From: a virus
IMG/VR virus record: IMGVR_UViG_3300047550_000641
Location: 1 to 23,056 of that record
Reading direction: 5' to 3' (one strand)
DNA: 23,056 nucleotides
Within the stretch, counting starts at the first letter, position 1, and every line of letters begins with the position of its first letter. The position numbers and the translations under genes were made by a program. This document shows, piece by piece, positions 17,655 to 20,724 of the stretch. The notes under the pieces are model-generated. The model saw nothing but the letters and a program-made list of their open reading frames with translations. It was not told where the DNA came from and made no database searches.

Positions 17655-17697
17655 TAGAACAAAACGTGGCGGATACCAATTAGATATCCGCCACGTT
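17655..17697 (-). terminator. Rho-independent terminator after the DUF932 gene
   Basis: AACGTGGCGGATA (17663-17675) and its complement (17685-17697) form a 13-bp GC-rich stem with a 9-nt loop, followed on the minus strand by TTTTGTTCT. It closes the ribozyme/DUF932 transcription unit. Confidence 0.85.
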
Positions 17698-17713
17698 ATT
17701 TGTGTGTGTGGTA

Positions 17714-18706
17714 TTAAAGAAGTGCCAGAACCTTGTTCTTAAATCGGTCACCAGCACCGCTAATAATACGTTCAGCACGTAATGTTTCTGGGTTCTTACC
17801 ACGAATTGGTGAAGCCCAGTCAGAGTATTCAATGAACGCGTTATACGCCGCCCATTTTGTGTTAGCAATATTTGCTTGCGTAGGTGCTTTCCAAAGACCC
17901 ATCAAAGTTCCGCGAGCAGTTTCCGCAATTGTTGTTGCGCGCTGGCTTTCTTCGTCAATTGGAAATACCTTTTCAACCAAAGTGGCAAATTGCTTATCGG
18001 TCATTTCTTGACTAATAAGTTTTTCTGCCATCTTCTCAAACTCTTCCGTATATTTGAAAGTAAGTTTGAGTGCGTCACGAGCCGCCTGAATTTTGCCATT
18101 AACGCCCGGTGTGTGGCGTAACGCATAATTAGATTTTGCGCTATTAATCGCCGCAGTTAGCGTGTTCTGGCAAACAACTCGTATCGGAGTAACCAAAAGA
18201 TTAAACGCGGAAGTTCCGTCGTGCGTATTCCACGCCATCAAATACAAATCAATTGCGTCTTGCCCACCGATTTGTAAACCTTCTGGCATTTTCATAGTCA
18301 TAAATACCTTACGACCATTATTCATTGAACCAGCCGTTTCAAATATCGCGCCTGATTCATCTGCTACGTAGTTCAAAAACGAAAATGCTTCCGCGTTCTG
18401 AACTGGCGTATAACGATTACCAACAACGCCCAAAGCGTCAGCCTTATTAGTCTTTGGGTGGTATCGGTAAGTCATATATTTATCTGGAAACGTAATCTTG
18501 CTAGTGCTTTTTCCGTCAGCAGTTGGAACAATTGATTCAACTGGCGTATCGGATTTAATTACCTTCCAGTCAAGCAACGCAGTTTTAAGTGCTTCTTCTG
18601 CGGTTAATGCGTTAGGTGTAACAACACCTAGTGAGTGCCAAGCGGGCTCACGATTTGTGAAAAACGCCGCTGTTCCATCTTCAAACTCATCTGGAACCAT
18701 ACCCAT
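17714..18706 (-). CDS. DUF932 (phage/plasmid-like) protein
   Basis: 330 residues. Family marks are EPAWHSLGVVTPNALTAEEA (19-38), GVVGNRYTPVQNAEAFSFLN (94-113), the block AWNTHDGTSAFNLLVTPIRV (158-177) followed by VCQNTL, and a helical C-terminus ending ERIISGAGDRFKNKVLALL. DUF932 proteins are widespread in phages and plasmids with no settled function. A role in DNA replication or recombination has been suggested from context only. AAGG lies 8 nt before the ATG. It follows an acidic 155-residue protein and ends in a strong terminator. Confidence 0.88.
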   Translation of the reverse strand: MGMVPDEFEDGTAAFFTNREPAWHSLGVVTPNALTAEEALKTALLDWKVIKSDTPVESIVPTADGKSTSKITFPDKYMTYRYHPKTNKADALGVVGNRYTPVQNAEAFSFLNYVADESGAIFETAGSMNNGRKVFMTMKMPEGLQIGGQDAIDLYLMAWNTHDGTSAFNLLVTPIRVVCQNTLTAAINSAKSNYALRHTPGVNGKIQAARDALKLTFKYTEEFEKMAEKLISQEMTDKQFATLVEKVFPIDEESQRATTIAETARGTLMGLWKAPTQANIANTKWAAYNAFIEYSDWASPIRGKNPETLRAERIISGAGDRFKNKVLALL

Positions 18707-18756: not shown

Positions 18757-19224
18757 TTAGTTGTCGTCAGATACGTCAAAATCTTCAATATCTGAATATT
18801 CTTCTTCCATATCCACGTCATTATCGCCACCGCGATAGTTAATGGTTACGTCAAAATCACTTTCGTCAATGGTTTCCACGTCAAAATCAAGTGGAACTGT
18901 TGCGGTGAATTTAACATCAACTTTGAACGTAACTTCAATTTCCTTAGTTAGTTCAATATCCATCTTTTCTGCGAACTCTTTCAAGTCGTCAGTTGTAATA
19001 TCGTCACTTTTAACAAAGTCAATTACAAACTCTGTTGTCTTACTACGCCAGTGATTTAACGCTTGACGTGCTTGGTCGTAATCGCTACGTGTATTTTCAA
19101 GACCACGTGTTAAGTGAGCAATACGATTAACAATGTCCGTAACGGAATTGTTCTTGACAAATTCAGCCGCTAATTCTTCATTAGTTGGCTTTGGTGTTTC
19201 AGTTGTAGTTGTTTCAGTAGTCAT
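18757..19224 (-). CDS. Acidic protein of unknown function downstream of ribozyme A
   Basis: 155 residues. Thr/Glu-rich start (MTTETTTTETPKPT), helical middle (IAHLTRGLENTRSDYDQARQ), then a beta-like part (EIEVTFKVDVKFTATVPLDF) and an extremely acidic tail of Asp and Glu. Such tails can mimic DNA or bind basic partners. The RBS AGGGA and the whole leader match that of the 139-residue gene. The leader carries a hammerhead ribozyme 26 nt upstream. Probably co-expressed with DUF932. Confidence 0.75.
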   Translation of the reverse strand: MTTETTTTETPKPTNEELAAEFVKNNSVTDIVNRIAHLTRGLENTRSDYDQARQALNHWRSKTTEFVIDFVKSDDITTDDLKEFAEKMDIELTKEIEVTFKVDVKFTATVPLDFDVETIDESDFDVTINYRGGDNDVDMEEEYSDIEDFDVSDDN

Positions 19225-19249
19225 TTGTTTCCCTAACGTTATGCTGACG

Positions 19250-19306
19250 AGGCTCGTCAGTATCGGTTATTTACCGATAGACCGCCCACGTGGGGCGGTT
19301 TCGCCT
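19250..19306 (-). ncRNA. Hammerhead ribozyme A (type II, stem II open)
   Basis: Minus strand 5' to 3': AGGC (19306-19303), GAAA (19302-19299), stem III ACCGCCC/GGGCGGU closed by CACGU, C17 at 19280, stem I UAUCGGU/ACCGAUA with loop AAAUA, core CUGACGA (19260-19254), then GCCU (19253-19250) closing stem II with AGGC. All hammerhead core positions fit: C3-A9 with N7 = C, G12-A14, the A15.1-U16.1 pair, H17 = C and the G10.1-C11.1 pair. Cleavage is predicted between 19280 and 19279. The first base of stem II is the last base of the upstream ORF's stop codon. Confidence 0.93.
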
Positions 19307-19449
19307 TAGTCGTATAAATGTTCCTCACTATTAGCGCAATTGCTATCTGGACAAACAAACATTGGAACCCATTGTGCTTGTCTAAGATTTTTACCGCATA
19401 TACCGCAACGTAAATGACCGCTACGTTTTGGTTCTTTAGTTGTAGTCAC
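19306..19449 (-). CDS. 47-residue zinc-ribbon protein, GTG start
   Basis: Starts VTTTKEPKRSGHLRCGICGK and continues to FVCPDSNCAN: CGIC and CPDSNC make a four-Cys zinc site. GTG at 19449 has AAAGG 8 nt upstream. It overlaps the 50-residue gene by 14 nt. Its stop codon abuts ribozyme A, so it would lie on the 5' cleavage product. Function unknown. Confidence 0.6.
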   Translation of the reverse strand: MTTTKEPKRSGHLRCGICGKNLRQAQWVPMFVCPDSNCANSEEHLYD

Positions 19450-19588
19450 TTAATTTGCCTTTCTTTAGTAGTTCTGAATATAAATCTACGCATTTAACGC
19501 AAATGCCAGATGTAAATTGGTCGCCGTTGTCGTAAACAAACCAGCGATATGTAACTACTTTGCCTTTACCGCATATTTGGCATCTCAT
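19436..19588 (-). CDS. 50-residue zinc-ribbon protein
   Basis: MRCQICGKGKVVTYRWFVYD at the start and GICVKCVDLYSELLKKGK near the end: CQIC and CVKC flank a 24-residue loop, a standard treble-clef-like zinc site. The ATG overlaps the stop of the 139-residue gene (ATGA). Function unknown. Confidence 0.65.
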   Translation of the reverse strand: MRCQICGKGKVVTYRWFVYDNGDQFTSGICVKCVDLYSELLKKGKLSDYN

Positions 19589-20004
19589 TTTGTAAGTTCC
19601 TCTACGCGTTTAACAATTGCGGCAACTCCATTAGTTAGTTTTTCTTCTAATCTAACTACTAACAATTGCTCGCAAATGCCGCGGTGGTATGCGCCAATAA
19701 TGTTATTGACGTATTCACCATCAATAGTTTGATAGTTACTACGAACACCCCACGCACCTTTACTGCGGTTCCAATTAACGTAATCAACCGACCATTTGAA
19801 ATTAAGGCTTGGTGATTTATCGCCTAATCCATATTGATTTGGTTCAATTACTTCAACTGAACAACGAATTGACTTAATCATTACTTTGTCTTTATTACCG
19901 CTAGTAGATACGCCAATGTAATGTTCCTCATTAAGCGTCATTGAACCTGTAACGTTCATAAAGAAACTGCCGAACGAATTGAAGTTTTTTTCCATTGTTG
20001 TCAT
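19585..20004 (-). CDS. Orphan protein downstream of ribozyme B
   Basis: 139 residues, not recognised. Mixed alpha/beta with SFGSFFMNVTGSMTLNEEHY near the start, then FKWSVDYVNWNRSKGAWGVR and a helical end (EQLLVVRLEEKLTNGVAAIV). The leader and RBS (GTTAGGGATAAAAA before the ATG) are the same as those of the 155-residue gene, and both genes begin MTT, yet the proteins are unrelated. It is the first ORF after the ribozyme B cleavage site. Confidence 0.7.
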   Translation of the reverse strand: MTTMEKNFNSFGSFFMNVTGSMTLNEEHYIGVSTSGNKDKVMIKSIRCSVEVIEPNQYGLGDKSPSLNFKWSVDYVNWNRSKGAWGVRSNYQTIDGEYVNNIIGAYHRGICEQLLVVRLEEKLTNGVAAIVKRVEELTK

Positions 20005-20034
20005 TTTTTATCCCTAACTTTCTGTTAATGGCTG

Positions 20035-20099
20035 TCCTCATCAGTTACTACTCGCCACGTAGTAAGACCGCCCAACTTTTAGTGTTGAGCGGTTTCGGA
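20035..20099 (-). ncRNA. Hammerhead ribozyme B (type II, stem II open)
   Basis: Minus strand 5' to 3': UCC (20099-20097), GAAA (20096-20093), stem III ACCGCUCAAC/GUUGGGCGGU (10 pairs, one G-U) with a 7-nt loop, C17 at 20066, stem I UUACUAC/GUAGUAA with loop GUGGCGA, core CUGAUGA (20044-20038), then GGA closing a 3-bp stem II with UCC. Every invariant hammerhead position is present. Cleavage is predicted between 20066 and 20065. Stem I differs from copy A at five of seven pairs, yet all pairs are kept. The short stem II may be helped by loop I pairing with GCCAU just downstream (20032-20028). Confidence 0.92.
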
Positions 20100-20724
20100 T
20101 TAATTCCTAGGTATATTTTTTGTTAAGGCTGGTTCGCCATTGGGTCCTTCGCTGTTATTTGACGTTGCGCTGGCTTCCTAATTGTCACTCGCTCGCCTTT
20201 CGGGTCTTCGCGATTAAGAAGTTGATTCCTATATCTGGAATGAGCGTCGCCTTTATTTGCGGGTCATAACTTGTAACGGAACGTATTACGTATTGCGGTT
20301 GGAAACCCCGAAGTGACTACCGTAATGTGTAGAACCTGTTACGGATTTCTGTTACTTGTTACTGGCTACGTGTAAATTAACCAAAGTAATTACCAAAACT
20401 TTTTGGTTAATTCTTGCCTTCTCTATTTAATTTTCTAGGTACTGGTACGAAACTCTTGATTTCCGATAGGAACTGTCCGAAGACTTATCAAGTTGTTTGT
20501 ACTAAGAGAACTATACGTGAGAAGCGTTACAAAGGGCATTAGGGGTAGGGGGCATTTCCCTACGTGAAAAGACCCTTTAAAACGTCGCTAGGGGTCGCTA
20601 GGGGGGTTTTGGGGTCTGAACCCATATACCGATATAGAAAGACGTATTAACGCTTTAAATCGCCATACACGCCGCAATTACGGCTCTTGCGTGTCGCCGT
20701 ATAACTGGCGGTAAAGTTCGGCGT
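20100..20724. other. About 620 bp without a convincing gene, between divergent genes
   Basis: Only short fragments of reading frames are open on either strand. Visible elements are: GTTAC-type repeats around 20336-20362 and ACGTATT at 20281, 20288 and 20642; an 11-bp inverted repeat 20375-20385/20402-20412; a GTAGGG/CCCTAC hairpin at 20545-20563; and a G-rich stretch with a tandem 10-mer GTCGCTAGGG at 20584-20603. It must hold the promoter for the ribozyme operon to the left and probably one for the plus-strand gene to the right. It might also be an origin or encode an RNA, but none of these is proven. Confidence 0.5.

Follow-up and report, generated by a model that had tools for sequence, protein, structure and literature searches.

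The minus strand of the viral record IMGVR_UViG_3300047550_000641 of IMG/VR, which was analysed over its whole 23,056 bases (the window), carries two type II hammerhead ribozymes, HH1 and HH2, in one phage operon; they represent two structural classes, found mostly in first and mostly in later elements of related operons, and the second ends in a tail exactly complementary to its own catalytic core. We put the probability at roughly 0.6 that they make up a self-processing early operon, in which the cuts leave hairpins at both new ends and the helix between core and tail, termed here the anti-core helix, makes the cut one-way. The features concerned are the following:

20101-20445, minus strand: whole leader RNA, conserved in close relatives, without open reading frames (ORFs)
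20114-20259, minus strand: conserved structured module of the leader RNA, immediately upstream of HH1 (covariance model R1)
20026-20100, minus strand: HH1, class A type II hammerhead; RF02276 match of 41.8 bits; predicted cleavage 20066/20065
20029-20057, minus strand: pseudoknot of HH1, loop I UGGC (20057-20054) with GCCA (20032-20029)
19585-20004, minus strand: ORF of 139 aa after HH1, family F11; no family match
19436-19588, minus strand: ORF of 50 aa with CxxC pairs (zinc-ribbon-like); no family match
19306-19449, minus strand: ORF of 47 aa with GTG start and cysteine pairs; no family match
19306-19308, minus strand: stop codon UAA of the 47-aa frame, abutting stem II of HH2
19244-19306, minus strand: HH2, class B type II hammerhead with anti-core tail; RF02276 match of 40.4 bits; predicted cleavage 19280/19279
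19254-19260, minus strand: catalytic core CUGACGA of HH2, 5' arm of the anti-core helix
19244-19250, minus strand: anti-core UCGUCAG of HH2, perfect core complement; covariation of N7 and its partner; predicted energy below that of the hammerhead secondary fold
18757-19224, minus strand: ORF of 155 aa (ORF155) directly after HH2, family F2; present in most related loci
17714-18706, minus strand: DUF932 protein (PF06067, phrog_1221), family F1; last long gene of the unit
17663-17697, minus strand: terminator-like hairpin of 15 bp and T-rich run after the DUF932 gene; pattern match only

The Rfam covariance models, run over the full length of the record, return HH1 and HH2 as its sole Hammerhead_II (RF02276) matches, both above the gathering score of 37. 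The initial annotation had read a pair of type II hammerheads within a single phage operon and had called for such a scan; the two scores, together with the 109 sense-strand against 0 antisense elements in the relatives, uphold that reading. Both elements present, in this order, CUGANGA, GAAA, the pair A15.1-U16.1 and C17, with stem II open and with CUGAUGA and CUGACGA as cores. The core and the stem lengths had been given correctly for both, the change of stem I holds (seven pairs in each element, of which five differ), and the proposed cleavage positions agree with the layout of core and stems; judged from their sequence, both hammerheads are likely to be catalytically active. The place assigned to the elements was also right, but they extend slightly beyond the limits given: the pseudoknot partner of HH1 reaches 20029 and the partner of the additional helix of HH2 occupies 19250-19244. 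The two structural classes, the anti-core helix of HH2, the placement relative to stop codons and ribosome-binding sites, and the leader RNA before HH1 had been overlooked in that first reading.

The hammerheads are widespread among related phages. Fifty-two IMG/VR loci, fetched solely through the neighbouring DUF932 protein and amounting to 545,582 bases, were scanned for GAAA, a stem III of at least five pairs, C or A at position 17, a stem I of at least four pairs and CUGANGA. All 109 elements found by this stem-and-core scan lie on the sense strand; the same scan comes out empty on the reversed and the complemented sequence of the 52 loci and on bacterial control loci totalling 297,560 bases, so that the hammerheads are not due to chance. 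At least one element occurs in 48 of the 52 loci, and all of these 48 but one hold between two and five, five being the maximum and reached in one locus; with a stricter pattern, applied to 30 whole contigs, most contigs show one cluster in one orientation. Isolated matches away from the clusters, such as G019:39082, look like chance, and contig G010 escaped the stricter pattern owing to other letters at its fixed positions. Homologues of HH1 occupy the equivalent place in the relatives L001-L005, L047 and L048. At the gathering score, RF02276 gives 8 matches across 13 loci and none in eight loci that hold many elements; the Rfam type II model at its curated cut-off overlooks most elements of this phage group (window 19244-20100; L006-L070). 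One locus (L060:1863-3500) presents five tandem class B hammerheads, about one per gene, with start codons that lack an AAGGG-like ribosome-binding site. Among isolated phages, DUF932 relatives were found in 571 records, all below 60% identity, the closest infecting Actinobacteria (Arthrobacter, Gordonia, Microbacterium); two of these phages, Antuna and Sonali, gave no hammerheads in the scan. A search for relatives of ORF155 among isolated phages found none, and a DNA search gave no useful match.

The genes of the operon differ in their constancy. In L001-L005 and L047, whose DUF932 proteins are 93-98% identical and whose hammerheads are near-identical, the genes between the hammerheads differ, and the stretch between the first and the second element appears in these relatives as a variable slot for accessory genes bounded by ribozymes. 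ORF155 (F2) and the DUF932 protein (F1), which follow the last elements, are largely constant among the relatives. The 15-bp hairpin at 17663-17697 is, from its sequence pattern, probably the end of this transcription unit. The Rfam family AaHKsRNA41, matched at 17660-17765 with 25.8 bits against a gathering score of 97, overlaps this hairpin and was taken as chance. The promoter scan recognised none and returned fewer sites than in shuffled sequences.

The position of the elements with respect to the genes is precise. For 127 elements, the median distance from the cleavage site to the start codon is 56 nt (10th-90th percentile 52-61), and the start codons that follow are mostly preceded by an AAGGG-like ribosome-binding site. 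An upstream open frame of at least 40 codons, with its stop codon 2-13 nt before GAAA, was found for 55 of the 58 later elements (second and following), and in 45 of the 58 the stop codon lies 3-4 nt before GAAA, which is the foot of stem II; this spacing implies that the later elements fill exactly the gap from a stop codon to the ribosome-binding site of the next gene. By the same test, 17 of 43 first elements have such a frame, and their spacing is not fixed.

The distinctive property of HH2, which lacks the pseudoknot, is a tail exactly complementary to its core: CUGACGA, GCC and UCGUCAG follow one another. With elements picked by the outer four pairs as the sole criterion, at least six anti-core pairs can be formed in 45 of 93 non-redundant elements, a set that includes loci fetched by an anti-core pattern in which N7 and its partner were left free, against 1.7 (maximum 7) with shuffled tails. 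In this selection, made without regard to N7, the combination of N7 and partner was C-G in 23, U-A in 22, U-G in 1 and mismatched in 2; in an ungapped alignment of 16 rows it was U-A in 9 and C-G in 7 without exception, and the remaining pairs are fixed by the core, except for the outer C-G pair, which is broken in 3. This covariation rests on one pair, N7 being the only variable base of the core, and on about five events: the DUF932 tree shows five changes of N7, the partner goes along in 3.9 of 4 independent pairs, and the sign test on these gives p of about 0.125, a value that so few events cannot bring to significance. Core and tail are 2 to 5 nt apart, depending on the element, and some of the pairs are G-U (UCGUUAG, UCAUUAG). 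A search of bacterial genomes with the anti-core pattern returned 40 matches; hammerhead stems accompany none of them, Rfam recognised no hammerhead in the 18 on which it was run, and the matches were regarded as chance. As for energetics, the hammerhead fold of HH2 is the predicted minimum from the completion of stem II to +4 nt, and from +6 nt the anti-core fold is predicted at -29.7 vs -23.4 kcal/mol for the hammerhead, tertiary contacts and magnesium not being counted. In the prediction, the 3' product of HH2 opens with stem I, which starts at nucleotide 1 and directly adjoins the anti-core hairpin, and the 5' product carries the stem III hairpin at its end. The anti-core fold is predicted to be the more stable one in the uncut RNA too, and on this modelling HH2 could be mostly in an OFF state.

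The distribution of the two structures along the operon is ordered. The loop I pseudoknot is a tertiary contact of most type II hammerheads, although it is not strictly required. In the loci fetched by the DUF932 protein, to which the class tally is limited, 21 of 34 non-redundant first elements have this pseudoknot without the anti-core, and at least six anti-core pairs occur in 4 of these 34 vs 29 of 38 later elements; some later elements have just 4-5 anti-core pairs, or none. The pseudoknot is present in HH1 and most first elements and absent from HH2 and most later ones, and among the first elements it varies on both sides (UAGGC/GCCUA, UUGGC/GCCAA, UCGC/GCGA, UGAUC/GAUCA, UCACC/GGUGA). 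This contact between loop I and the 3' tail of type II hammerheads has been described as important for the speed of cleavage (PMC3088659). Helices I and III are backed by compensatory changes: in class B, helix I shows double changes at six of its seven pairs and is 98.2% paired in the 16-row alignment, and helix III was judged by eye across the relatives. In the same alignment (A1, columns 7 and 12; window 19261-19279) the pair that closes the class B loop I is U-G in 15 of 16 rows although the loop varies, a conservation that suggests a tertiary contact of this loop.

Upstream of HH1 lies a further RNA, with strong covariation, that appears to be a novel candidate structured RNA. The minus strand at 20445-20101 contains no ORF of 50 aa, and Rfam gave no match to the leader. 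The R1 model, built on the 145-nt 3' part of the leader, detects relatives in 14 loci outside the training group (E ≤ 0.003), each adjoining the first hammerhead at a distance of 3-59 nt, save for one alignment (L025) that overlaps the hammerhead by 25 nt, and none beside later hammerheads in those loci; altogether the module adjoins the first hammerhead in at least 20 loci. Double changes are seen at 25 of its 31 pairs in 19 sequences, whose alignment was fitted to the model, which favours this result; the corresponding cells number 111 in these model-fitted sequences vs 33 in shuffles and at most 26 in slid controls. The 5' half of the leader has confident matches in close relatives only. 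A 30-nt core of the leader (GACCCGAAAGGCGAGCGAG) is also present near a gene start in a second phage group (L133:1227-1256, plus strand; L130:4451-4480, minus strand), and both of these loci hold two hammerheads of their own on the same strand as the leader core.

The reading we prefer is that of an early operon processed by its own transcript. The minus-strand transcript would start in the intergenic region at 20.1-20.7 kb, with the structured leader RNA first; the cut at HH1 would part the leader from the first coding segment, and that at HH2 would part the small accessory genes from ORF155 and DUF932. To our knowledge, type II is the sole hammerhead permutation whose cleavage separates two complete hairpins. 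As stem II is left open, a cut would leave one such hairpin on either side: the upstream RNA would close, directly behind its stop codon, with stem III as a terminal hairpin bearing a 2',3'-cyclic phosphate, and the downstream mRNA would carry a 5'-OH and form the stem I hairpin from its very first nucleotide, some 56 nt ahead of the start codon. The active fold of HH1 would be stabilised by the loop I pseudoknot; in HH2, the core would next pair with the tail UCGUCAG, stacked on stem I, and this helix would block religation. RNAs with a 5'-OH or a base-paired 5' end are poor substrates for the 5'-monophosphate-dependent decay by RNase E, and the two-hairpin 5' end of the HH2 product should withstand decay that depends on the 5' end. 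The start of transcription, cleavage in the cell, the order of folding and the protection of the mRNA are all inferred here, as is the role of the anti-core helix as a latch. More tentatively, and with somewhat less than even odds, the elements may be described as self-latching hammerheads, in which the core is reused in a 5'-protective helix, or as a translation-gated switch, with an operon-wide processing that also releases a leader RNA of 150-340 nt.

The anti-core helix can also be read as an OFF switch or timer, by which HH2 would cut briefly, before the tail is transcribed, or whenever a ribosome or protein keeps the tail single-stranded, the cell thereby choosing between polycistronic and cut mRNA. 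This possibility, which we consider clearly less probable than self-processing with a latch, agrees with the predicted order of folding, which gives a window of about 5 nt before an inactive fold 6 kcal/mol lower takes over, and with the location of the element, flanked by a stop codon and a ribosome-binding site, at which ribosomes might intervene. Nevertheless, the elements show no sensor or ligand domain, and in all relatives little distance separates tail, core and start codon; moreover, the anti-core helix would form after cleavage as well, so that the data fit latch and switch alike. The latch is preferred, and held loosely, because both classes yield a compact double-helical 5' end on the same 56-nt leader. 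A plainer explanation would see ordinary tandem phage hammerheads, the anti-core being a by-product of a tertiary contact between the tail and loop I; the U-G pair that closes loop I in 15 of 16 class B elements points to a constraint of this loop's own, yet the tail changes along with N7 of the core rather than with the variable loop I, and we hold this explanation to be improbable.

Two further readings concern the segment between the elements and the repeat itself. The 786 nt between the cuts are flanked by two direct copies, and the ends of the products would be ligatable, which speaks for excision of a separate or circular RNA in the manner of retrozymes and viroid-like RNAs. Such a fate is very unlikely, given that in the relatives as many as five elements alternate with differing genes, that the elements are of type II and not of type I or III and lack retroelement features, and that the terminal hairpins of stems III and I and the anti-core helix disfavour ligation; in addition, Perreault et al. 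(PMC3088659) examined bacterial arrays for products that were circular or spliced, with a negative result. That the core-tail inverted repeat (CTGATGAGCCTCATCAG) acts as a DNA operator is hardly credible: as DNA it does form a dyad near gene starts, but the variation of the spacer and the G-U pairs suit an RNA helix, not a dyad of fixed spacing, the repeat lies between genes within the operon and joined to hammerheads, and none of the 40 bacterial pattern matches has hammerhead stems.

The role of hammerheads in bacteria and phages has been asked since 2011, and the fixed geometry, the ordered classes and the core-complementary tail now make a specific role testable, namely the division of early phage mRNA into pieces with protected ends, the elements having a one-way latch or switch of their own; a further use could be as small self-capping insulators between the genes of engineered operons. 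Part of this arrangement is already known. Type II hammerheads, the loop I pseudoknot and tandem arrays around phage genes, including arrays in prophages, are described in Perreault et al. 2011 (PMC3088659). According to the same source, many prophage clusters flank single genes or short gene blocks, and nearly every relative has two to five elements, so that the earlier view of a direct tandem around protein genes as unusual is not supported. Cleavage was shown there for three arrays; activity of tandem phage hammerheads is documented both in vitro and within E. coli, and prophage clusters are thought to process long transcripts (PMC3088659). Apparently new are the core-complementary lock and the folded leader RNA upstream: the literature, which was incompletely covered, yielded no description of a hammerhead tail complementary to the core, of two ordered classes or of the leader.

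In comparison with the known systems, the elements share with RF02276 the same core, three helices, open stem II and C17, and HH1 also the loop I pseudoknot, whereas HH2-type elements lack the pseudoknot and possess a 3' core complement, and most elements of this phage group score below the gathering threshold. Retrozymes and viroid-like circular RNAs also contain direct hammerhead pairs; in contrast, the elements of the window are of type II, lie in a protein-coding phage operon and lack circularisation features, and around the pair no retroelement features were seen, the context being a phage operon with variable genes between the elements. In the haloviruses HF1/HF2, too, an early operon has a hammerhead close upstream of its start codon, at 13 nt, and its 5' end maps at most 3 nt from the cleavage site (PMC3088659); this hammerhead differs in having a core variant and, as far as the accessible text goes, a single described site and no mention of an anti-core tail. 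The prophage clusters of the Agrobacterium ardA triple array, Clostridium scindens and Azorhizobium (PMC3088659) likewise place several hammerheads around phage genes, whereas the phage group of the window repeats this arrangement at fixed distances, with its two classes in order and a structured leader RNA in front.
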